DNA of 13,233 bases, from positions 1 to 13,233 of the forward strand of contig WJIO01000317.1 in NCBI GenBank assembly GCA_014730235.1, read 5' to 3'. The position numbers and the translations under genes are program-made. Below the pieces are notes generated by a model that was given only the letters and a program-made list of their open reading frames with translations, did no database searches and had not been told where the DNA came from. The DNA is from Candidatus Poribacteria bacterium. GTDB lineage: Bacteria > Poribacteria > DTPJ01 > WJIO01. Shown piece after piece: positions 1,383-13,233 of this stretch; within the stretch, counting starts at the first letter, position 1; each line of letters opens with the position of its first letter.

Positions 1383-3266
1383 TTATTTGAGTTTGGGAAA
1401 TTCCGTCACCCTCAAATTCGTGGCTCCATAGGGTATCAATTCAAGCTCTTCCTCAGATTCAGAAGAACTTATGGAACTTTCAGGTGGTGGAGCAGCAGCA
1501 TTATGCTCAATACCCCATTCAGGAATTTTCTTACCCTTTACTTTCATGGTCAAAGGCGCGCCATCAGGTGAAAAAGGCATATCGCCAACCTTTTTTAACT
1601 TTATTTTAACACATTTTTCGGGATTTTCCATATCTATTTTTAAAGCATAATTCCAGTCTGTCTTTGGGTATATTTCCCAATCAGCATGTGGTTTTTCCCC
1701 GCCGATCTGCTTCCATTCCTCTTCCATCTTCAGGGAATACACCAAAGGCCCTCGTTCCAGAGCTACTGAATCGTTATATCTTTTCTGAGCTTTGACTTTC
1801 ATGGGAGTGTTGAGGTCTACTAATCTAATCTTATCCCATTTTTTCTTTATTGGAAAATATTCTCCTGCTCTTGTTTCCACGATCTCGCCATTGACCTTTA
1901 CCATCGCATTTTCTGACCATTCTGGAATTCGCAGATAAAGGGGGAATTCTACAGGTTTGTCGGTTTTAATTGTAAATTTCAAATCTTCACCAAAAGGATA
2001 ATCGGTTTCCAGCGAAACAGTCACCTGTGTTCCTGAAATTTCAGTTGTCACTTCCGACGGTGCATAAGCTGAAGCTACCAAACCATCATCAGGAGTTTTC
2101 ATCCAAAGATGCGAGGCAAACTTGGGCCAGCCCTGGTGCATGTTTGCCGTACAGCAGCCATAATTAGGCTCCAGACCAAATACATTGGCATAAGGCCCAT
2201 TGTTGGTATAAACCCTGTCTTCTGATACTTTACAGACTACCTGATTGGCCTGCTGATCATATTGATGGGACCACATATCCGGACTGAATGTAGCTGGTAG
2301 AGCGTTAAATGTAATCTTCTCCAACCTGTCGGCCAATCGCGTATCTCCCAGTATGCTGATTAGATTTTCCAGGGAAAACATATACTCCACCACTGCGCAA
2401 AGTTCTGTTCCCTGGGATGGACTTTTACCCGCGTAGTGTTCATCGCCGGTGAATAGACCTGTGACCTGACCGTGATATTTATCCAGAGTTTCTATTATCT
2501 GGAATACCGATTCCCTGTCACCCTGGTCCTTTGATTGGCGATACCATACCCCCGGTTGCTTTACTGCCATACCGTTATTAACCACATGGGTAGTCTGGTT
2601 ACATTCATCGGCTTTCATCTTTTGCTTCCACTGGAAATCAGCAAAGTGTCCTCGCCAGTCATATCCCTGTTCATGGGCTTTGGCGGATAAATCCAGCAAC
2701 CATTCCTGTCCGGTTCGATCATAAAGCCAGTGTATGCTTAAAACCAGGTCCGCCCATCGGGATTTCCCCCATGAAAATAACGGCTTTTCGTCCAGAAGCT
2801 TATCAAGACGCTGGAAAAACTTTTCCATTGCCGGAATGATACGTGTATCTCCGGTAGCTTCCTGGTACTGAGTCATAGCCTTCAGGGTTACAAAAACAGG
2901 CCAGGGGTCATAAGCTTCGTACCTGTCATAACGCTCATCCCGGACAGGTCCAAGCCAGCCATCGGAGTGTTGATGTGTGACAATATAATCTATCCAGTCA
3001 CGGGCTTTCTCCTTCAACTTTTCATCATCCAGCAGAAATGCCAAAGGAATTATTCCATCAAGCCAGTATGGGCCTCTCTCCCAACCTTCGGCTTTTCCTC
3101 CGATCCATCCACTGTCAGCCACATCGGGCCAGAATTCGTCCAGATGTCCGCTCAGACCATCGGCCTGGATGCGAAGCTGGTTTTTCAGCCATCCTTTGGG
3201 CTTGACGCTGCCTAATGACAGAGGAACAAAAGTAAGGGGTGCAAGTCCGTTTTTCTTGTCGCTCAT
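1383..3266 (-). CDS. GH127/DUF1680 family glycoside hydrolase (beta-L-arabinofuranosidase-like)
   Basis: 627-residue cytosolic protein of the DUF1680/GH127 family, whose founder, bifidobacterial HypBA1, is a retaining beta-L-arabinofuranosidase using a zinc-bound cysteine nucleophile. Residues about 30-380 form the (alpha/alpha)6 barrel and the rest beta-sandwich domains. The four zinc ligands I know from HypBA1 (E-x-C and C-C) are present: E288-x-C290 in GTELCAVVEYM and C371-C372 in NYGCCTANMHQGW; C371 would be the nucleophile. GDEHYAG contains E276, a candidate acid/base, 12 residues before E288 rather than about 16, suggesting a different subfamily. Near the C-terminus a Pro/Ser/Glu-rich stretch (about 592-608) precedes the usual LIPYGATNLRVTEFP ending. 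No signal peptide. The start is set by AGGAGGA about 8 bases upstream of the ATG; the gene lies 32 bp after the lyase gene, so they are surely co-transcribed. The family also contains enzymes for other sugars, so the substrate is uncertain. Confidence 0.9.
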   Translation of the reverse strand: MSDKKNGLAPLTFVPLSLGSVKPKGWLKNQLRIQADGLSGHLDEFWPDVADSGWIGGKAEGWERGPYWLDGIIPLAFLLDDEKLKEKARDWIDYIVTHQHSDGWLGPVRDERYDRYEAYDPWPVFVTLKAMTQYQEATGDTRIIPAMEKFFQRLDKLLDEKPLFSWGKSRWADLVLSIHWLYDRTGQEWLLDLSAKAHEQGYDWRGHFADFQWKQKMKADECNQTTHVVNNGMAVKQPGVWYRQSKDQGDRESVFQIIETLDKYHGQVTGLFTGDEHYAGKSPSQGTELCAVVEYMFSLENLISILGDTRLADRLEKITFNALPATFSPDMWSHQYDQQANQVVCKVSEDRVYTNNGPYANVFGLEPNYGCCTANMHQGWPKFASHLWMKTPDDGLVASAYAPSEVTTEISGTQVTVSLETDYPFGEDLKFTIKTDKPVEFPLYLRIPEWSENAMVKVNGEIVETRAGEYFPIKKKWDKIRLVDLNTPMKVKAQKRYNDSVALERGPLVYSLKMEEEWKQIGGEKPHADWEIYPKTDWNYALKIDMENPEKCVKIKLKKVGDMPFSPDGAPLTMKVKGKKIPEWGIEHNAAAPPPESSISSSESEEELELIPYGATNLRVTEFPKLK

Positions 3267-3298
3267 TTATATAATCCTCCTGTGTTAATTATTAACAT

Positions 3299-5878
3299 CT
3301 AATTTATCTGTAACTTCTTATCAAGGCTACCATCAGTCTTGATCTTAATCAACATAGCTTCTGAATCTGTGGAATATCCGGAAAATTCCAGCTTTTCACC
3401 CGGTTCATCCGACTGAATGAATATGTGTTCCCGATTATCTGTAAAGGTTATTTTAATACAACGGGCTTCAGCATTACCCTTTATATCCTGTAATTCTACA
3501 GACTTAACTGGACACTCAACACTTTCCGCAGTTGGGTAAAACAAATAAATATACCAGACCACACCTTCCCCGGATTTGGTGAAGATGGGGGTAGGTACAG
3601 GTCTTACTTTATAGCCACCAGCAGGTAACCATCCCTGGACAACAGGTTCCTCCTGCCCTGATACTATTTCTACTGATATATTATCATCCTCTGGCGGGAT
3701 AATGGATAAATTGCTGGTATCAGGATTTTGAGTGTCAACCCGATTTGTATCTGTTTCTATAACAGCATCAGCAGCTTCCAGATGGAACATGGATTCGTAT
3801 TTATGTTTAGTATCATCTGAAGGTTTGAGAATATCGATTATTATCCAGTAATCGGGTTTAGCAAAGAATATACAGCGTTTATGTATTACCTGGACATTTC
3901 CATCTTTGCCATATCCATCCTCATAAACTCCTGAAAAATAGTCATAATCGTCATTGGTAATCCATTTATTGGGCAAAGGTTCTTTGACCACAAAAGTTTC
4001 TCTAGGTAGTCTCCTGCGGTTTTGCGGCTGTCCATCCACCATAATTGTATTGTGTGCATAAGTGGAAATTACATATCTACGCCATTGGGATGAATCGTAG
4101 GGATAATTTCCCGGATCGGTTATATGCACCTTGCCATGAGCATAGAGTACGATACTCAGTTTATCCTCATGCTGATGACCATAACCAAAAGGCCCGCCGT
4201 CAATCAGCATATACCTGTCATCTTCTTCCCAGCCTGAACGCATTATAAATTGACCTGCGTAGGGAAAAGTGTATGAAATTTCAGTGGGTTTTTCACCTTC
4301 TTTGCCATTGGTCGCCGACCATTGAAAATCCTTACGATGTGAAAAATACCTGAATCCCTCCCGCATACTGCGGCGTATGGATAATTCGCTTCCGTCATTC
4401 AACCCCGGAAGTCGTCCATTGGGCATTGAAGCGTATAGGTTATAATGATACATGTGTTCCAGCTTATCCAGATAGTCATCCGGCATGTCTATCTCATTGA
4501 GCTTTGCCAGTTCCATCAGACCTACAAAATTCCTCAGACTTACCTGGTGATAGCCTGTAGTTAATTCAATCTGGGCCCCATCAGGATAAACCTGTTTGTC
4601 AAGTTCGGCATACATGCGCTCTATTGCCGATTCTCGCCATTCTTCCGCTTCTTTGAATTCCGGAAACATGGTTCCGATGTGAAATAAACCGTTGGATTCC
4701 ATAGTCAGCCAGTTTCCACCCGTTGGCCATCTCATCAGGTGTCGGGCATGTTCCACAAAAGATTTTACCATGGTGATAACAGCTTCATGGGTAAATGAGG
4801 GTGAAGAAAGAAAATAATGAAACGCGTGCATCCAGCTTCCACTGGTTCTTATCCCTGCTTCAATGGTTCGCCATGTGGCCGATGAGTTGCCGGAATTCAT
4901 AGTAGGAACAGGGCAGTTTTCCACCCAGTGAGTCATCTGGTATACAAATTCTTTGGCGTATTTTTCGTCGCCGGTTTTCCAGTATGTTCTGCCTAATGTC
5001 ACCCAGAATGGATGGCGATTTAACTGCCAGGGCCATTCCCGGTAGTTAATAGGATTAAGAGTCCAGTCTATTTCTCCCTCAAATTTATGAGGAACACCGA
5101 CGCTGGAAAGCTCATGTTCCAGTATCCTATCAGCTGCCTCAGTATCTGCGTTTTCACTGGCATCAGGTCTTTCCTGCCAGTCAAAGTGCCAGCGGGGCTT
5201 TTCCCTAGTTCGCAGATGATTCACAAACTCATGCTTTGCCGATTCCAGGTCATTTTTCGATACAGCTTCTTTAACTTTCTCCATTCCCGGATAATCGAGA
5301 TTCAGGGAATCGAAGAATTCCTGGTCTGTCATGCGCGGGCCTTTCATTGGCTCCTCCTTAGATATTTCTATATGATCAATAATAACCACTGCATCAGGAT
5401 GCGGCTGATTACCCCATCCGGAAGCAGTAAAAGTAAGTCTTTGTATTTGATCCCAGCCCAACGGACTACGGGCTACTCCCATTTCCTGAAAGGGTATCTT
5501 AAACTCTCGCCATCCGGTAAAATCCAGCCTTATGCGCATGGAGTAATAATCTATACCCTCTGTTTTTTCATTCTCAGACCATAATATAAGCATAAACCGG
5601 GAATCCGTCTTCACTTTTGAGTAAAGCCAGAATGCCAGATGATTATATCCCGACCAGTCATGGGGTATTTGAGAAATAGATACAGAATCAGATTGGGAAT
5701 GAATCCATTTAACAGATCCCTCACCCTCTTTAACACGCTCAGACTCAGACACAGCACCATCCCACAAGCTGACATCCTCACAATCGCTTATTTTCATTTT
5801 TGATACAGCTTGAATAGGTATTGAAAATAAAAAAGATATAGACATAATAATTAAAAACATCATTAATCGAAAGACCAT
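3299..5878 (-). CDS. Secreted heparinase II/III-family polysaccharide lyase with N-terminal carbohydrate-binding-like domain
   Basis: 859-residue exported protein. Residues 1-24 are a Sec signal peptide (Arg4, hydrophobic core, probable cleavage after IQA). Residues about 27-175 resemble a beta-sandwich carbohydrate-binding module. About 185-500 is an alpha/alpha toroid of heparinase II/III N-terminal type, with GGNWLTMESNGLFHIG (387-402) and TTGYHQVSLRNF (440-451; Tyr443 is a candidate catalytic Tyr). About 535-859 is the heparinase II/III C-terminal beta-sheet domain, with FPYAGQFIMRSGW (538-550), GPFGYGHQHEDKL (562-574), DPGNYPYD (588-595) and STYAHNTIMVDG (605-616). Relatives cleave uronic-acid-containing polysaccharides (heparin/heparan, alginate, others) by beta-elimination. 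I cannot assign the PL family or substrate. First gene of the minus-strand operon. Its ribosome site is weak (GGGG about 8 bases before the ATG), and the leader carries two hairpins that may affect expression. Confidence 0.88.
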   Translation of the reverse strand: MVFRLMMFLIIMSISFLFSIPIQAVSKMKISDCEDVSLWDGAVSESERVKEGEGSVKWIHSQSDSVSISQIPHDWSGYNHLAFWLYSKVKTDSRFMLILWSENEKTEGIDYYSMRIRLDFTGWREFKIPFQEMGVARSPLGWDQIQRLTFTASGWGNQPHPDAVVIIDHIEISKEEPMKGPRMTDQEFFDSLNLDYPGMEKVKEAVSKNDLESAKHEFVNHLRTREKPRWHFDWQERPDASENADTEAADRILEHELSSVGVPHKFEGEIDWTLNPINYREWPWQLNRHPFWVTLGRTYWKTGDEKYAKEFVYQMTHWVENCPVPTMNSGNSSATWRTIEAGIRTSGSWMHAFHYFLSSPSFTHEAVITMVKSFVEHARHLMRWPTGGNWLTMESNGLFHIGTMFPEFKEAEEWRESAIERMYAELDKQVYPDGAQIELTTGYHQVSLRNFVGLMELAKLNEIDMPDDYLDKLEHMYHYNLYASMPNGRLPGLNDGSELSIRRSMREGFRYFSHRKDFQWSATNGKEGEKPTEISYTFPYAGQFIMRSGWEEDDRYMLIDGGPFGYGHQHEDKLSIVLYAHGKVHITDPGNYPYDSSQWRRYVISTYAHNTIMVDGQPQNRRRLPRETFVVKEPLPNKWITNDDYDYFSGVYEDGYGKDGNVQVIHKRCIFFAKPDYWIIIDILKPSDDTKHKYESMFHLEAADAVIETDTNRVDTQNPDTSNLSIIPPEDDNISVEIVSGQEEPVVQGWLPAGGYKVRPVPTPIFTKSGEGVVWYIYLFYPTAESVECPVKSVELQDIKGNAEARCIKITFTDNREHIFIQSDEPGEKLEFSGYSTDSEAMLIKIKTDGSLDKKLQIN

Positions 5879-5924
5879 TTTTATTACCCCATTATTGCAA
5901 TTGTTAAATAATGAATATCACTTA

Positions 5925-6012
5925 CTGTCATTCCTGCGAAAGCAGAAATCCAGCAGATCCAAATAAAGCTGTCATTCCTGCGGAAGCAGGAATCCAGTAG
6001 ATCCGCATAAAG
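5925..6012. repeat. Two tandem 44-bp repeats, each with a dRS3-like hairpin
   Basis: Two head-to-tail units, 5925-5968 and 5969-6012, each exactly 44 bp and identical at 39 positions. Each begins CTGTCATTCCTGCG and ends CATAAAG or AATAAAG. Each contains a 20-nt palindrome with an 8-bp stem and 4-nt loop: ATTCCTGCGGAAGCAGGAAT at 5974-5993 is perfect, and the one at 5930-5949 has a single change that becomes a U-G wobble in the minus-strand transcript, so both hairpins can form in the lyase mRNA leader. The motif resembles the widespread ATTCCN8GGAAT repeats (for example neisserial dRS3), here with T in place of the last C of the arm. Confidence 0.85.
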
Positions 6013-6016
6013 AACT

Positions 6017-6183
6017 TTCTTATCTTTACCACACTAAACCTGGAAAAACCAGAAATTATAAAGAGAACATATTATTATACTATACGGATCAGACGTTCAT
6101 GTCAATGCAGATTCTGACAAACTAAAAACTTTATTTGTTATCCCTTATTCGCAATAACATCGGGATGTAAAATTTATGCTTGG
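6017..6183 (+). repeat. Degenerate/partial copy of the dispersed MITE-like element (copy 1)
   Basis: Two blocks match the arms of the intact element at 8286-8519. The inner block at 6017-6047 (TTCTTATCTTTACCACACT and onwards) matches the reverse complement of 8331-8361 with few differences, and less closely 8459-8491. The outer block at about 6126-6183 shares AAACTTTAT, CGCAATAACA and the terminal ATTTATGCTTGG with the reverse complement of the left arm. Roughly 75 bp carrying the lyase promoter separate the blocks and have no match in the intact copy. There is no matching left terminus near 5880-5925; the tandem 44-bp repeat stands where the element centre would be. So this is a decayed, rearranged or composite copy. 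Confidence 0.6.
6077..6105 (-). promoter_or_regulatory. Sigma70-like promoter of the lyase operon
   Basis: Read on the minus strand: TTGACA (6105-6100), a 17-bp spacer, then TAGTAT (6082-6077). The -35 is perfect and the -10 matches four of six positions. Transcription would start near 6070, giving a leader of about 190 nt that includes both 44-bp repeat units. Sequence-based prediction only. Confidence 0.6.
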
Positions 6184-6199
6184 GTTGTAAAATAGATAA

Positions 6200-6228
6200 T
6201 TGACATAGATTCGACATTATCGTAATAT
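6200..6228 (+). promoter_or_regulatory. Near-consensus sigma70 promoter of the sulfatase gene
   Basis: TTGACA at 6200-6205, a spacer of exactly 17 bp, then TAATAT at 6223-6228 (five of six). Predicted start near 6235 gives a leader of about 38 nt with AAGGAG at 6261-6266 before the TTG start. The -35 lies 16 bp outside the end of the degenerate dispersed-repeat copy. Confidence 0.75.
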
Positions 6229-6272
6229 ATGGAACAATCGCTTGATAATTACTGAAAATAAAGGAGATAAAA

Positions 6273-7811
6273 TTGAAAGATCAACGTCCTAATATATTAT
6301 TCGCATTCGCCGATGACTGGGGTAGATACGCCAGTGCATATCGGCAAATTGAGGGAAATAACACACCAAACGCCCTTATTGAAACACCAAATTTCGATCG
6401 AGTGGCCAGAGAGGGAGTATTGTTTGCAAATGCTTTTGTACCTGCACCATCCTGCACCCCCTGCCGCAGTTCCATATTGTCCGGTCGCTATTTCTGGCAA
6501 ACGGATAGAGGAGCTATTTTGCAAGGTGCAATATGGGATTCCTCCATACCCACATATCCCCTGATCCTGGAAGAAGCCGGTTATCATATCGGATATACAT
6601 ATAAAGTCTGGTCGCCGGGAACACCCAGGGATGAACCATACGGCGGAGATCGCACCAGATATGCACCAGCCGGGGCAAAATTCGGTCAATTTTCCATAGT
6701 CGCCACTCAGAATGTACCAGAACATGGCGTAGAAGGCGCTAAAGAAATACTCTATGACGAAGTTCGGCAGAATTTTGATGCCTTCCTGGAAGCAAGACCG
6801 GAAGGCGCGCCTTTCTGCTACTGGTGGGGACCTACCAACACCCATCGCAAATGGGAACGTGGTTCTGGAAAGAAATTATGGGGATTGGATCCTGATGATC
6901 TGAAGGGAAAGCTTCCTGATTTCCTGCCCGACGTTCATGAAGTCCGGGAGGATGTCTGCGATTATCTCGGTGAATGTCTGGCTGTAGATGCTGGTCTGGG
7001 ACTTCTCATGAAACGCATAGAGGATATGGGCGAGTTAGATAATACTTTAATAGTCGTCAGCGGCGATCACGGTATTCCGGGATTTCCAAGGGGAAAATGT
7101 AATCTATATAATCTGGGTTGTGAAGTCGCCTTAGCCGTCCGTTGGCCAGGGCATATACCCGAAAACCGCATAGTTGATGACTTTGTAAATCTCATGGATC
7201 TGGCCCCTACGTTTCTTGATGCAGCCAATCTTGAACCACCGGAATGTATGAGTGCTAGAAGCCTGCTGGATGTCCCTACATCTTCAGAATCTGGACAGGT
7301 AGATCCACAGCGGACATTTGTCGTTACCGGCAGGGAAAGACATGTGGCCAGAGCCAGGGCCAACAACTTACCTTATCCCCAACGGGCAATCCGTACCAGA
7401 GATTTTCTATACATCCATAACTTTGCCCCTGAACGCTGGCCCATGGGCGATCCGGGGGGATTGGATGATCCAAATGCACAGCCGCCATCATACGATGAAT
7501 TATGCAATAACACAATGGTTGTATATGCAGACATGGACGCCAGCCCAACAAAAGCATGGATGATCCATCATCGCTCAGAAAAACAGGTACACAGTCTATT
7601 TCAGATGGGATTTGGTAAATTTCCGAAGGAGGAATTATATGATCTGCGCAAAGACCCATATTATATGAACAATGTAGTGGATGATCCAGCATACAAAGAA
7701 ATACACACAAAATTAAAGGATCAACTGATGTCTGTCCTAAAAGAGCAAAATGACCCCAGGGTTGTAGAATCTGACTGCCGGTTTGAAAGATCACCATTCA
7801 CGGATGGATAA
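6273..7811 (+). CDS. Type I (formylglycine) sulfatase, cytosolic, TTG start
   Basis: 512-residue sulfatase of the alkaline-phosphatase superfamily that hydrolyses sulfate esters of carbohydrates. NILFAFADDWG gives metal ligands Asp14-Asp15; the signature is C61-T-P-C-R65 in APSCTPCRSSILSGRY, where Cys61 must be oxidised to formylglycine by a sulfatase-modifying enzyme; VVSGDHGIPGFPRGKCN supplies Asp265-His266 and Lys275; His191 (NTHRKW) is a likely active-site residue. The third residue after Cys61 is Cys rather than the commoner Ser, and the usual TG after the signature is SG (70-71). There is no signal peptide, so it should act in the cytosol on imported oligosaccharides. The start is a TTG with AAGGAG 6-7 bases upstream; no in-frame ATG nearby has such a site. 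It is a single-gene unit divergent from the lyase operon. No maturase lies in the window. Substrate subfamily not assigned. Confidence 0.92.
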   Translation: MKDQRPNILFAFADDWGRYASAYRQIEGNNTPNALIETPNFDRVAREGVLFANAFVPAPSCTPCRSSILSGRYFWQTDRGAILQGAIWDSSIPTYPLILEEAGYHIGYTYKVWSPGTPRDEPYGGDRTRYAPAGAKFGQFSIVATQNVPEHGVEGAKEILYDEVRQNFDAFLEARPEGAPFCYWWGPTNTHRKWERGSGKKLWGLDPDDLKGKLPDFLPDVHEVREDVCDYLGECLAVDAGLGLLMKRIEDMGELDNTLIVVSGDHGIPGFPRGKCNLYNLGCEVALAVRWPGHIPENRIVDDFVNLMDLAPTFLDAANLEPPECMSARSLLDVPTSSESGQVDPQRTFVVTGRERHVARARANNLPYPQRAIRTRDFLYIHNFAPERWPMGDPGGLDDPNAQPPSYDELCNNTMVVYADMDASPTKAWMIHHRSEKQVHSLFQMGFGKFPKEELYDLRKDPYYMNNVVDDPAYKEIHTKLKDQLMSVLKEQNDPRVVESDCRFERSPFTDG

Positions 7812-7922: not shown

Positions 7923-8144
7923 TCAACCAGTTGGATGGTTTATTAAATAACCTTTAGCCTCAAGCATTTTCTTTATCTCATTAACGTCCTCCTGAGTGTA
8001 GTATCTCCATCCTCTGCTATCTCTTTTTGCTTCAGGTATAATACCTTTCGATTCCCATTTTTTAATAGTAAGAGTACTCCTGTCAAGTTCCTTGGCTAAT
8101 TCACCAATTTTATAAGTCTTGCCCGTATCTTCAAAGCTGAGCAT
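7923..8144 (-). CDS. Small MerR-type winged-helix DNA-binding protein
   Basis: 73 residues from the ATG at 8144, chosen because AAGGAG stands 10 bases upstream; the longer reading from an ATG at 8192 adds 16 unconserved residues and has no ribosome site. Residues 10-32 (TYKIGELAKELDRSTLTIKKWE) form a MerR-type helix-turn-helix and 43-54 (SRGWRYYTQEDV) the wing with its typical R-x-Y-T-x-x-D signature; a short helix then ends the protein. It lacks the long coiled-coil dimerisation helix and ligand domain of normal MerR proteins, so it is a DNA-binding domain alone, like BldC or excisionase-type proteins. It is divergent from the MFS-DegT unit and could control it and itself; that is inference. 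It converges on the sulfatase gene with about 110 bp between stop codons. Confidence 0.8.
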   Translation of the reverse strand: MLSFEDTGKTYKIGELAKELDRSTLTIKKWESKGIIPEAKRDSRGWRYYTQEDVNEIKKMLEAKGYLINHPTG

Positions 8145-8240
8145 TTTTATATGTCTCCTTTGATTATTGCCGCCGGTTATTATTTTACCCATAAATGGGT
8201 TTGTATAAAGTATATATTATATAGGTTTTATATATAACAT

Positions 8241-8269
8241 ATAATATCATATAAATCCGGTATTTGCAA
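8241..8269 (-). promoter_or_regulatory. Candidate promoter of the merR-like gene
   Basis: On the minus strand: TTGCAA (8269-8264; four of six), a 17-bp spacer, TATTAT (8246-8241; five of six). Predicted start near 8234, giving a leader of about 90 nt. A second TATAAT at 8221-8216 lacks a good -35. A+T-rich surroundings make chance matches likely, so confidence is modest. Confidence 0.4.
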
Positions 8270-8276
8270 GCTAAAA

Positions 8277-8285
8277 TTAAAATAT
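8277..8285 (+). repeat. Left target-site duplication of the MITE-like element
   Basis: TTAAAATAT directly abuts the left terminus and recurs in the same orientation at 8520-8528 directly after the right terminus. The next base, C, also matches (8286 and 8529), so the duplication is 9 or 10 bp depending on where the element is taken to begin. Confidence 0.75.
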
Positions 8286-8519
8286 CCAAGCATAAAATTT
8301 ATCATGTGTTATTGCGATAAAGTTTGTTTCTTCCTGGTTCAGTGTGTTAAAGATAAGAAACTTCTATATGCTGTCATTCATGCGAAACTCTTATTCCTTT
8401 TTGCTCAAGCTTTTTCAAAAAGCTTGAAGCAGGAATGACAGGCTGAGAAAATTTTCAAATTATTACCATACTCAAACCGGAAGAGCCAAAGTTTTCACGG
8501 ACATAAATTTTATGCTTCG
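8286..8519. mobile_element. Intact 234-bp MITE-like palindromic element (copy 2)
   Basis: Non-coding element with terminal inverted repeats: CCAAGCATAAAATTTAT at 8286-8302 and its inverse at 8503-8519 (16 of 17 identical, the inner 15 perfectly). It is flanked by a 9-10 bp direct repeat, the mark of transposition. The arms are imperfect inverted copies of each other: 8331-8361 read in reverse resembles 8459-8491. The centre is bounded by CTGTCATTC (8371-8379) and GAATGACAG, and contains a perfect 10-bp stem with a 1-nt loop, CAAGCTTTTT/AAAAAGCTTG, at 8406-8426. It has no ORF, so it would need a transposase in trans. A 9-bp duplication fits IS1- or IS4-like enzymes, but the family is not shown. 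A copy at 13193 matches its right end at 40 of 41 bases. Confidence 0.8.
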
Positions 8520-8528
8520 TTAAAATAT
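8520..8528 (+). repeat. Right target-site duplication of the MITE-like element
   Basis: TTAAAATAT, identical to 8277-8285 and in direct orientation. It ends two bases before the -35 box of the MFS promoter, so the insertion fixed the sequence immediately upstream of that promoter. Confidence 0.75.
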
Positions 8529-8529
8529 C

Positions 8530-8558
8530 TTGACTTATTATTTGGTTAAGATTAAGAT
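8530..8558 (+). promoter_or_regulatory. Sigma70-like promoter of the MFS-DegT unit
   Basis: TTGACT at 8530-8535 (five of six), a 17-bp spacer, TAAGAT at 8553-8558 (five of six). Predicted start near 8565, so the leader begins almost exactly with the AGCTATA arm of an inverted repeat (8564-8570, partner 8601-8607). The promoter lies just outside the right end of the mobile element. Confidence 0.6.
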
Positions 8559-8632
8559 ATTGGAGCTATATGCAACTCTCGGGAAAAATACAGAACTTAT
8601 TATAGCTAACCAGTTCATTAATGGAGGTAAAC

Positions 8633-9847
8633 ATGCGTCACTTAGAGGTTCAGTATCGATCTCTATATGTGGGAATGTTGATTAACTTTATCATCTTTGG
8701 TATCACCCTTACTATCATCGGTGCTACGCTTCCAAAGATCATAAGGGATTTTGAATGGAGTTACACAGCAACAGGCGCGGTAATCGCCGCTGGTTCTATA
8801 GGATATTTTGTTTCAACTTTTGTGTCCGGTATTCTGCTTCACACACTAAATCCCAAGCAGGTTATGTTTGGCGGGTTACTGGTTCAATCTCTGGGTCTGT
8901 TATTCTTTGCTTCCAAACCTGTAATCCTGCTTAATTTCTTTCTCAATATGCTTATAGGTCTTGGTCAGGGGTGTACTGAAGTAGTTGTAAACTACAGTGT
9001 GGTTCGCATAGAGAGAGAGGGTGAAAGCCGCTTGATGAGCCTGATGCATGCAGCCTTTGCTGTTGGTGCTGTAATAGGCCCTTTTGCTGTAGGTCGGATA
9101 ATAGAATCAGGTTTAAGCTGGCAGATGATATACAGGTTTATGTCAGCCATATCTCTGATTATGGCTGTTGTTTTCTTAACACTTCCATTTTCGCGAATTA
9201 AAAAAGAAGAAGAGGATAAAGACAATAGTGATCCAGAAAAACCAGGAATAATACAACTGCTTAAACACCCCCTGCTGATATTTTCTTTCCTGATATTATT
9301 CATTTACGTGGGAACAGAAATGGGAACATCGGCCTGGGTGGCGGAATACTATGTGAAAATCCTGGGTGAATCAGCTTCCCTGGGCGCGTATATGGTTTCA
9401 GTATTCTGGATTGGTTTATTGATAGGCAGACTGGCTTTTTCAGGTTATAACGGAACGCGTCAGGCTGAAATGATGCTGCTCTTGTCAATAATCTGCACAG
9501 TCTCTTTAGCTATTGCTATAATGCTTAAAAATTCATGGATTGCCGGTCTTGGTTTTGGTTTTGCGGGTCTTGGTTTTTCCGCTATATATCCTTTGGTAAT
9601 ATCAGTAGTAGGAAAATATTTCAAAAAAGTTCAGGGCCCGGCCATCGGATTTACGGCAACAGGTGGTGGAGTTGGCAGCTTTGCATTTCCGTTTATAATG
9701 GCAACAATTTCAGACCATTTTGGTCTAAGACATGGTTTTGTTTTCTATATTGCTCTTGACGTAGTTATGGCAATTCTGGCAGGTGCTGTGATATGGCAGG
9801 TTCATAAACTTGAAAAGACAAGTAAAGCAAAATTGAATGGAGGATGA
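8633..9847 (+). CDS. MFS transporter, sugar permease-like (FucP/FHS-type)
   Basis: 404-residue inner-membrane carrier with about 12 transmembrane helices in two halves, split by a charged cytoplasmic loop at about 187-205 (SRIKKEEEDKDNSDPEKPG). The first half has IGATLPKIIRDFEWSYTATGAV and a conserved NMLIGLGQGCTEVVVNY block; the second starts with FIYVGTEMGTSAWVAEYYVK, a pattern seen in fucose-permease-like carriers, and carries GFTATGGGVGSFAFPFI near the end. This points to proton-coupled sugar uptake, but the substrate is unknown. The start at 8633 is chosen because GGAGG at 8623-8627 is 5 bases before it; the in-frame ATG at 8621 overlaps that site and has none of its own. It ends at a TGA (9845-9847) two bases before the preferred start of the DegT gene, so the pair is translationally coupled. 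Confidence 0.88.
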   Translation: MRHLEVQYRSLYVGMLINFIIFGITLTIIGATLPKIIRDFEWSYTATGAVIAAGSIGYFVSTFVSGILLHTLNPKQVMFGGLLVQSLGLLFFASKPVILLNFFLNMLIGLGQGCTEVVVNYSVVRIEREGESRLMSLMHAAFAVGAVIGPFAVGRIIESGLSWQMIYRFMSAISLIMAVVFLTLPFSRIKKEEEDKDNSDPEKPGIIQLLKHPLLIFSFLILFIYVGTEMGTSAWVAEYYVKILGESASLGAYMVSVFWIGLLIGRLAFSGYNGTRQAEMMLLLSIICTVSLAIAIMLKNSWIAGLGFGFAGLGFSAIYPLVISVVGKYFKKVQGPAIGFTATGGGVGSFAFPFIMATISDHFGLRHGFVFYIALDVVMAILAGAVIWQVHKLEKTSKAKLNGG

Positions 9848-11134: not shown

Positions 11135-13093
11135 CTATTTTTCTATTACCCTATGCACAACCTGACTTAGTTCTGTTGGATGATATGGCTTTGGGATTAC
11201 ATCAACAAAGCCATATCTTTTATAATCGGACATAATAGGATTGTTGGAATAACCGCTTGAAACAATAGCCTTGATTTCAGGGTCATATTCCAGTAAACGT
11301 TTAATAGCCTCTTTTCCGCCCATACCGCCGGGTATAGTTAAATCCATAATAACAACGTCAAAAGGTTTTTCTGATTCTTTTGCTTTTCTGTAAAGCTCTA
11401 TAGCCTCTACACCATCAAAAGCAGTAGTCACAGAATAACCAAAAGAAGAAAGCATCTCTTCAAGCAGTTCACGTATTCGCATTTCATCATCCATAACCAG
11501 GATTTTACCTTGACCTTTTATAGGTCTCTTTACAGGTTTCGGATCTGCTTTTTCGATGGTTATATTTGCATCAGAAGCGGGAAGGTATATATGAAAAGTA
11601 GAACCGACGTTAATTTTTGATTCAACTTTAATCGTTCCGCCATGGCTTTTTACAATAGAATAAGCCGTTGCTAAACCCAGACCGCTGCCTTTTTGCTTTG
11701 TTGAGAAGTAAGGATCAAATATTCTCTTCAGATGTTCATCCGATATACCAATACCATTATCCGTAATGGATATTTTAATATATCTTCTGGGTTCTAATTG
11801 TAAAAAATTACAATCTTCTTTAGAGATGTTGTTTAAATTTATAACAATCTTACCACCATTTGACATTGCCTGATCCGCATTAATTATAATATTACTTATA
11901 ACCCGCTGAATTTGCTCTACGTCAATATCCGCGAACCACAGTCCATCAGGCATGGACAGATGATACTTAACATTAGAACCACTCAGGGTAAGATTTATTG
12001 AATCTCTTACCAGTTCAACTATATTAGTAATTTTCTTTTCAGGTTTCGAGTTTTTGGATAAGGTAAGTAACTGCTTTGTAAGTTTTGCTGCCTGTATGGC
12101 TGCGTTTTCTGCATCTATAATTCTTTCCTGTAAATCATCACCGTCTTTATATAATTTTACAAGGGAAAGATTGTTTATAATAACAGTAAGGAAGTTGTTA
12201 AAGTCATGGGCAATGCCGCTGGCCATGAGATTAATTGATTCAAGCTTCTGGACTTTTAAAATTTCCTCTTCATTTTTCTTACGTTCGGTAATGTCTATGA
12301 GTATACCCCTTGTTCCTACAGATTTTCCGGAACGGACAACAGGATTTAGATATATAATAGCCGGAAATATACTCCCACCTTTTCGCAAAATATTATACTC
12401 GCCGCTCACATCTTCTTTTTCATCCAAAACTTTATTAAAAAGTTTTAAAATACTTTCTTGATCCTCCGGTAGAAATAATTTCATTGCATCAAAACCTGTG
12501 TCAATATCTTTCTGGGAATAGCCGGTGGACTTAAAGGCTTGAACGTTAGCAAATGTCACATTTCCATGGATATCAGTTTCAAAAACTGTTTGAGGGAGAA
12601 GATCAGCAAGTTCTCTGTATCGGTTTTCACTTTCTCGCAGGGCCTGTTCAGATTTTACTCGTTCTGTAATATCACTCATAAAATTCAGTGTCGCCTTTTT
12701 TCCCTGCCAGTCAATTACTACAGCATTCACTTCTACCCAACGGATTAAACCATTTTTGGCAACAATCCTGAATGGATATACATGAGGAAGATTTTCACCT
12801 TTAAGTCGTTTAAGATGCCGCTGCAATACCATTTGCCGGTCTTCTTTGTGTATAAATTCAGTAAACACCTTAGTCAACAGTTCTTCTTCAGAATATCCAG
12901 TAATCTCTATTGCCTTGGGATTTACAAATTTAAGCATACCATCCTGAACTACAACTATTGCTTCATTGGCATTTTCAACCAGTATACGATATTGTTTTTC
13001 ACTTTCCAAAACTGCAGCTTTCGCCTTTTTTAGTTTTCCTTCAATAATCATTCTTTTTTTGTTTTCATTGGATTTAACACTGTCTATCGTCAT
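11135..13093 (-). CDS. Soluble hybrid histidine kinase (PAS-PAS-HisKA-HATPase-REC)
   Basis: 652-residue two-component sensor with no signal peptide or membrane helix, so cytosolic. A short N-terminal coiled coil (about 10-35) is followed by PAS1 (about 35-148, ending FMSDITERVKSEQAL), PAS2 (about 155-273, ending ILIDITERKKNEEEI), the HisKA dimerisation helix with His296 in HDFNNFLTV, and the ATPase domain with N-box Asn405 (NIIINADQAM), DNGIG from Asp445 and GSGLGLA at 469-475. A C-terminal receiver has acidic Asp535-Asp536, phospho-acceptor Asp584 (IMDLTIPGG), Ser613 and Lys635. It has no output domain, so a partner must carry the signal, and none is in the window. ATG at 13093 is chosen with GGAGG 8 bases upstream; the preceding TTG would add one residue. 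The PAS ligand is unknown. Probably monocistronic in this window. Confidence 0.93.
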   Translation of the reverse strand: MTIDSVKSNENKKRMIIEGKLKKAKAAVLESEKQYRILVENANEAIVVVQDGMLKFVNPKAIEITGYSEEELLTKVFTEFIHKEDRQMVLQRHLKRLKGENLPHVYPFRIVAKNGLIRWVEVNAVVIDWQGKKATLNFMSDITERVKSEQALRESENRYRELADLLPQTVFETDIHGNVTFANVQAFKSTGYSQKDIDTGFDAMKLFLPEDQESILKLFNKVLDEKEDVSGEYNILRKGGSIFPAIIYLNPVVRSGKSVGTRGILIDITERKKNEEEILKVQKLESINLMASGIAHDFNNFLTVIINNLSLVKLYKDGDDLQERIIDAENAAIQAAKLTKQLLTLSKNSKPEKKITNIVELVRDSINLTLSGSNVKYHLSMPDGLWFADIDVEQIQRVISNIIINADQAMSNGGKIVINLNNISKEDCNFLQLEPRRYIKISITDNGIGISDEHLKRIFDPYFSTKQKGSGLGLATAYSIVKSHGGTIKVESKINVGSTFHIYLPASDANITIEKADPKPVKRPIKGQGKILVMDDEMRIRELLEEMLSSFGYSVTTAFDGVEAIELYRKAKESEKPFDVVIMDLTIPGGMGGKEAIKRLLEYDPEIKAIVSSGYSNNPIMSDYKRYGFVDVIPKPYHPTELSQVVHRVIEK

Positions 13094-13146
13094 CAATATA
13101 TCCTCCGAATTGATCTGGAGTGTTCATCAGATATTATCGGCAGATT

Positions 13147-13176
13147 ATTGTATATACTTAAATAATATTGACTCAA
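13147..13176 (-). promoter_or_regulatory. Candidate promoter of the histidine kinase gene
   Basis: On the minus strand: TTGAGT (13176-13171; four of six), an 18-bp spacer, TACAAT (13152-13147; five of six). An 11-bp palindrome ATTGACTCAAT (13167-13177) overlaps the -35 and could be an operator or chance. The -35 begins 16 bp from the end of the repeat copy at 13193. Confidence 0.4.
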
Positions 13177-13192
13177 TAATTTTACTCGTTAA

Positions 13193-13233
13193 CCAAGCAT
13201 AAAATTTATGTCCGTGAAAACTTTGGCTCTTCC
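13193..13233. mobile_element. Start of a third copy of the MITE-like element, cut by window edge
   Basis: The last 41 bases begin with the terminus CCAAGCATAAAATTTAT and match the reverse complement of 8479-8519 at 40 of 41 positions; the one difference is the second terminal base. The rest of the element lies beyond the window. The 9 bp outside the terminus (13184-13192, ACTCGTTAA) are the predicted target duplication. Confidence 0.8.

Follow-up and report, generated by a model that had tools for sequence, protein, structure and literature searches.

A high-copy MITE family anchored to predicted promoters, likely of ISKra4 type and carrying a second, ISL3-like MITE, in a Candidatus Poribacteria genome

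Between a merR-like gene and an MFS transporter gene in the window (the whole stretch of DNA that was analysed, 13,233 nucleotides long) lies a short palindromic sequence, and the question it raises is what it is, what moves it and how its position came about. We read it as an ISKra4-type MITE (the outer MITE) that is mobilised in trans, is placed at promoters and carries an ISL3-like MITE (the inner MITE), and we give this joint reading a probability of about 0.87. The analysis was computational and was carried out on one fragmented genome assembly, with promoters predicted from sequence. The features of the window to which the text refers are the following.

7923-8192, minus strand: MerR-family regulator gene (Pfam and sequence), downstream of TTGCAA-N17-TATTAT
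8241-8269, minus strand: predicted sigma70-type merR promoter, TTGCAA (8269-8264) N17 TATTAT (8246-8241)
8277-8285, no strand: left copy of the target duplication TTAAAATAT, 9 bp, length from family statistics
8286-8519: outer MITE copy as a whole, 234 bp, ends set by family statistics
8286-8302, plus strand: left TIR CCAAGCATAAAATTTAT of the outer, likely ISKra4-type MITE
8286-8325, plus strand: left part of the outer MITE, ending in AAAGTTT, the left border of the nested insertion (32-copy alignment)
8326-8487, plus strand: nested inner ISL3-like MITE (32-copy alignment; found alone elsewhere with 8-bp duplications)
8370-8441, plus strand: innermost palindrome CTGTCATTC...GAATGACAG, of a length that varies among copies
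8488-8519, plus strand: right part of the outer MITE, beginning with AAAGTTTT, the right border of the nested insertion
8503-8519, minus strand: right TIR, 16/17 identical to the left TIR
8520-8528, no strand: right copy of the target duplication TTAAAATAT, 9 bp, length from family statistics
8530-8558, plus strand: predicted promoter of the MFS gene, TTGACT N17 TAAGAT
8621-9847, plus strand: MFS transporter gene (ORF and Pfam)
13147-13176, minus strand: predicted promoter before the kinase gene at 11135-13096, TTGAGT N18 TACAAT
13193-13233, plus strand: second outer-MITE copy of the right-end type, of which only the start is present because the contig end cuts it

The sequence at 8286-8519 is a real MITE: it is short and non-coding, has TIRs and a target duplication and exists in many copies. 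The first-pass annotation, which had described a non-autonomous transposable element of 234 bp with TIRs of 16/17 and no ORF, was right on each of these points, and no ORF of 80 aa or more was found inside 8286-8519. It had also noted a direct duplication of 9-10 bp, the longer form of which covers 8277-8286 and 8520-8529 (10 bp). Nine of these bases form the target duplication and the tenth, a C, is incidental, because the duplications in the family occur 22 times at 9 bp and never at 10. These counts derive from 45 family TIR pairs, 22 of which are flanked by exact 9-bp duplications, with at most one pair at any other length; when the flanks of the 45 pairs were shifted by 15 bases as a control, no exact duplication was detected. 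One strand of the element can fold end to end, as had been suggested, with a folding energy of -70.3 kcal/mol for RNA (z = -6.2) and -40.2 for DNA (z = -5.4), and in both cases none of 200 shuffles folded as well. No match to a known RNA in Rfam was found in the window.

The further TIR-paired copies that the first-pass annotation had proposed to look for are numerous, so that a lack of other copies cannot be held against the element. The 17-bp TIR has 238 matches (109 + 129) with at most 2 mismatches in its own genome (5.53 Mb, 451 contigs), compared to 3 (1 + 2) for the reversed sequence, and this recurrence is therefore not due to chance. A DNA search with the element gave at least 79 matches in the same genome, with 40 of 766 candidate places scored. 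The outer family is high-copy, with more than 100 copies in its own genome, an estimate based on pattern counts and on some 160 flanks that were sampled. No copies of the element were found in 83 other genomes of the phylum Poribacteria. Two single TIR-like matches among 38 relatives are probably chance matches, and in wider genome and viral contig collections the TIR pattern matched other organisms only singly, never as a pair. As far as examined, the outer family is confined to its source lineage. For the copy at L085 a paralogous empty site with about 75% identity and a single target was found; it is a diverged paralogue, not an orthologous spacer, and supports insertion at this locus.

The palindromic body described in the first-pass annotation is only partly what it seemed: the mirror arms and the central hairpin are present, but they do not form one element. 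An alignment of 32 full copies has a common outer shell and a common interior, and the interior (8326-8487 in the window) also stands alone elsewhere in the genome, between 8-bp duplications. The appearance of mirror arms plus a central hairpin arises because one MITE is nested within another, with a further palindrome at the centre. The TIR of the inner MITE, GGYTCTTCCGGGTTCAGTGTGG, has 761 matches in its own genome (control 0), and 27 of 83 inner-MITE pairs are flanked by duplications that are exact at 8 bp (control 0). A further 21 of the 83 pairs are exact at 7 bp, including nested copies with one common junction. AAAGTTT and AAAGTTTT border the interior in the nested copies, and this shared junction suggests that nesting happened once and that the composite was amplified afterwards. 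The inner MITE would thus have been inserted into one ancestral outer element at AAAGTTTT, after which the composite of outer and inner MITE would have been copied to many promoters. A search of the genome for an un-nested outer element that has the immediate target sequence gave none, and the only un-nested form is a diverged one of 165 bp (L116).

The ends of the inner MITE, GGYTCTTCCGG, resemble GGTTCATCCGG, the end of an ISL3 transposase relic on C342. Together with the 8-bp duplications they suggest that the inner MITE is ISL3-like. This assignment is the weaker for the outcome of a search for an intact ISL3 element, which yielded only three ISL3 transposase fragments, at or near contig ends. 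The inner MITE is commoner than the outer one, measures about 120 bp and has a variable central hairpin (examples are C15:1694-1813, C29:5523-5643 and C71:19089-19209). Two outer copies (L013:1478-1759 and L033:1476-1712) carry an extra 25-bp end, CAAAGCATAAATTTCTTGTCYGGAT, before the usual TIR, and in both the 9-bp duplication encloses this longer form.

The main new result is that the outer MITE family is anchored to predicted promoters. These were sought in 159 distinct outer-family flanks as TTGACA/TATAAT pairs carrying no more than 3 mismatches over the two boxes together. In 45 of these flanks a sigma70-type promoter has the start of its -35 box at base 17, counted from the TIR, compared to a mean of 1.16 and a maximum of 7 in dinucleotide shuffles. 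At base 16 it starts in 11 flanks, at base 18 in 2 and at other positions in 0-6. For bases 16-18 the count is 56 of 159 flanks, above the criterion for promoter-targeting p-MULT elements, which is a -35 box 13-17 bp from the IR-genome junction at over 20% of insertion sites. Both ends of the outer MITE face base-17 promoters about equally often, and 23 of the 45 promoters have a TG at the extended -10 place. Of the 35 elements whose duplication matches at 7/9 or better, 23 have a promoter predicted at the fixed distance on exactly one side, the window copy at 8286-8519 among them, and none has one on both sides; control distances gave a mean of 2.1. For the other 12, the stricter threshold left no promoter at this distance. 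A base-17 promoter peak is absent from the inner-MITE flanks. In word searches of the open-access literature, no report was found of a MITE with promoter targeting or of an ISKra4 MITE.

In the window, TTGCAA-N17-TATTAT is likely the promoter of the merR-like gene: 16 bp separate the left TIR from its -35 box (base 17), and a TG precedes its -10 box. The likelier start of this gene is not at 8192 but at 8144, where AGGAG precedes it. The predicted promoter of the kinase gene has its -35 box at base 17 from the TIR of the second copy, as at merR. The -35 box of the predicted MFS promoter is at base 11 from the right TIR and is off the canonical distance. Genes for carbohydrate degradation are located near the locus, at 1383-7811 of the window, and encode a GH127-type glycosidase, a heparinase II/III-type lyase and a sulfatase.

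Two candidates were found for the insertion sequence with matching ends that the first-pass annotation had proposed to look for. On C45, the MITE's own TIR (CCAAGCATAAAATTTACATCC, one mismatch) follows closely behind the stop codon of an ISKra4-like C-terminus, which is identical at 55/74 positions to the transposase of an IS on C354. The latter is an intact IS of 1509 bp with an ISKra4-type (Mutator-like) transposase, identified by a search with an ISKra4 model; it has the TIR CCAAGCATAAAAATAATGTTCCCTT, beginning with CCAAGCATAAAA, at both ends and a 9-bp duplication, CCGATTTGT. Its TIR is identical to the MITE TIR in the first 12 bases and matches only partly thereafter. The element with the exact TIR is a truncated relic, and the C354 element is the only intact candidate IS. 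We call it ISKra4-type, not a certified family member, because its transposase scores 152.5 bits (E 2.3e-44) and the cut-off of the NCBI curated ISKra4 model NF033572 is 205. The C354 IS itself has no clear promoter at base 17. The MITE TIR starts with CC, and has the terminal C of ISKra4-type IRs. The outer MITE family is likely assignable to the ISKra4 type (p-MULT 4, Mutator-like), and its transposase is assigned by this likeness.

Other transposases of the genome were considered as well. Among the PF01609 transposases, none has the MITE TIR at both ends. Another ISKra4 transposase, on C264, passes the NF033572 cut-off with 218 bits and has ends that differ from those of the MITE. An ISKra4 fragment on C260 adjoins a MITE end; it was rejected as a partner, since C299 and C301 carry its own end, GAGTGCGATTT, next to other flanks. 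The GAGTGCGATTT ends belong to a second ISKra4-type element that is present in several copies (L136 at C264:899-2062, C260:1-150 and the contig ends of C299 and C301), and on C260 this element sits inside an outer MITE.

In the mechanism that we propose, an ISKra4-type transposase acting in trans would recognise the CCAAGCATAAAA... ends and insert the element with a 9-bp duplication, such that a TIR end comes to lie 16 bp upstream of a sigma70-type -35 box. The 16-bp spacing would consist of the 9-bp duplication plus 7 bp, and the site may be selected through recognition of promoter DNA or of RNA polymerase.

The elements may also be lost again. Near-perfect 23-bp palindromes, CCAAGCATAAAATTTATGCTTGG, were found between 9-bp duplications on C93 (9/9) and C337 (8/9), each with a predicted promoter at base 17, and on C106 a 30-bp variant lies between two copies of TGTCAGAAC; few 23-bp scars have clear duplications. 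Longer scars of 30-31 bp (L106/L062, at C353:2739-2769 and C106:7562-7591) repeat part of the TIR tip (CCAAGCA or ATGCTTGG), as though an end had been duplicated in the course of the deletion. The sequence ATAAAATTTAT in each TIR is almost self-palindromic, and the two TIRs are therefore also near-direct repeats. Slippage between these repeats, across the hairpin, could remove the body so that the 23-bp palindromic scars remain, and the scars likely stem from a deletion running from ATAAAATTTAT of one TIR to ATAAATTTTAT of the other. In the nearly precise excision of Tn10 and Tn5, a hairpin aids deletion between short repeats near the ends, and a small remnant and the target duplication are left. 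The MITE scars are similar in that they too are small remnants with a target duplication; they differ in that the repeats are the ATAAAATTTAT sequences inside the TIRs themselves, and the process is deduced from the remnants only.

The fixed distance could in principle result from selection or from host use instead of targeting. If insertion were random and survivors remained only at harmless sites just upstream of promoters, a bias to intergenic DNA would be expected in any case because intragenic insertions would be lost, and many flanks do have an ORF start within 300 bp, with or without a base-17 promoter. Survival should allow a range of distances, however, whereas the -35 box falls at exactly base 17 in 45 flanks, compared with 11 and 2 flanks for bases 16 and 18. 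In addition, the inner MITE, which is likewise intergenic and commoner, has no promoter peak, and related transposases target promoters at an equal distance (PMC3942029), so that we regard survival as a very unlikely explanation. The TIR region might also be an operator or UP-like binding site that the host keeps at promoters, with the transposon features being secondary. A lone, near-perfect 23-bp palindrome at a fixed promoter distance at several loci does resemble a regulator site. Against this, both the elements and the scars have 9-bp target duplications, the genes in question seem to have nothing in common, and either end faces promoters about as often as the other, which is what insertion by nearly symmetrical ends should produce; the chance that this explanation holds seems slim.

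The proposal that an IS1182-family transposase mobilises the element draws on two places where an IS1182-like 5' end directly abuts CCAAGCATAAAATTTAT, with different flanks. The IS1182 relatives in the phylum have TIRs of their own, though (GATATTGGTGGCGAATC and GATGTTGTTGGCGAATTC), and the relics begin with GATACTGTTGGCGAATTC just after the MITE TIR, which indicates that IS1182 was inserted into the MITE end. Since IS1182 ends do not equal MITE ends, a role of IS1182 as mobiliser is contradicted, and its probability is close to negligible. The relics concerned, at L111:2203-3139 (C451:2203) and L112 (C18:1123-1139), both lie directly behind the 17-bp TIR of an outer MITE, as if the palindromic end were a preferred IS1182 target.

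ISKra4-type mobilisation in trans, with placement at promoters, would be of interest in several respects. For a bacterial DDE transposase it is unusual to insert at a fixed distance upstream of promoters, and a family of more than 100 copies provides a footprint of this specificity at base resolution in one genome (-35 box at base 17, often with an extended -10). It suggests that MITE ends alone can carry promoter specificity, without internal genes, and that one MITE can carry another to dozens of promoters. The copies would also mark likely promoters in an uncultured lineage. By placing one potential regulator-binding palindrome at an identical position, 16 bp upstream, in dozens of promoters, the elements and their scars may have given the host a shared control site at some of them, which we consider very unlikely; if true, the spread of a MITE would have made a palindrome common to promoters, some of which are now used by the host for control.

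Comparison with known systems places the two MITEs differently. ISL3-family IS and the inner MITE are alike in their 8-bp duplications and ends, and in the genome of the inner MITE an intact ISL3 partner was not found. Placement at promoters has been described for TnGBS, ISLre2 and part of the ISKra4 group, which insert on the upstream side of sigmaA promoters at a constant distance of 13-17 bp (PMC3942029). Where the IRs of an element are nearly identical, the promoter may lie on either side of it, and contact of the transposase with RNA polymerase has been proposed as a model (PMC3942029). The TnGBS conjugative elements and ISLre2 (p-MULT 3) resemble the outer MITE in inserting 15-17 bp upstream of the -35 box (PMC3942029), but are autonomous, mostly have one orientation to the promoter and belong to another transposase family. 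Members of the ISKra4 group (p-MULT 4, Mutator-like) include ISKra2/4/5/6, ISLfe1 and ISHhy1, and elements of this group have IRs with a terminal C, 8-9 bp duplications and promoter specificity (PMC3942029). The outer MITE shares with them the terminal-C IRs, the 9-bp duplications, the fixed distance to sigma70/sigmaA promoters and the occurrence of promoters on either side, and the TIR of the ISKra4-type IS in its own genome matches its TIR partly only. It differs from the group in being without a transposase, about 200-300 bp long, high-copy and nested with another MITE.
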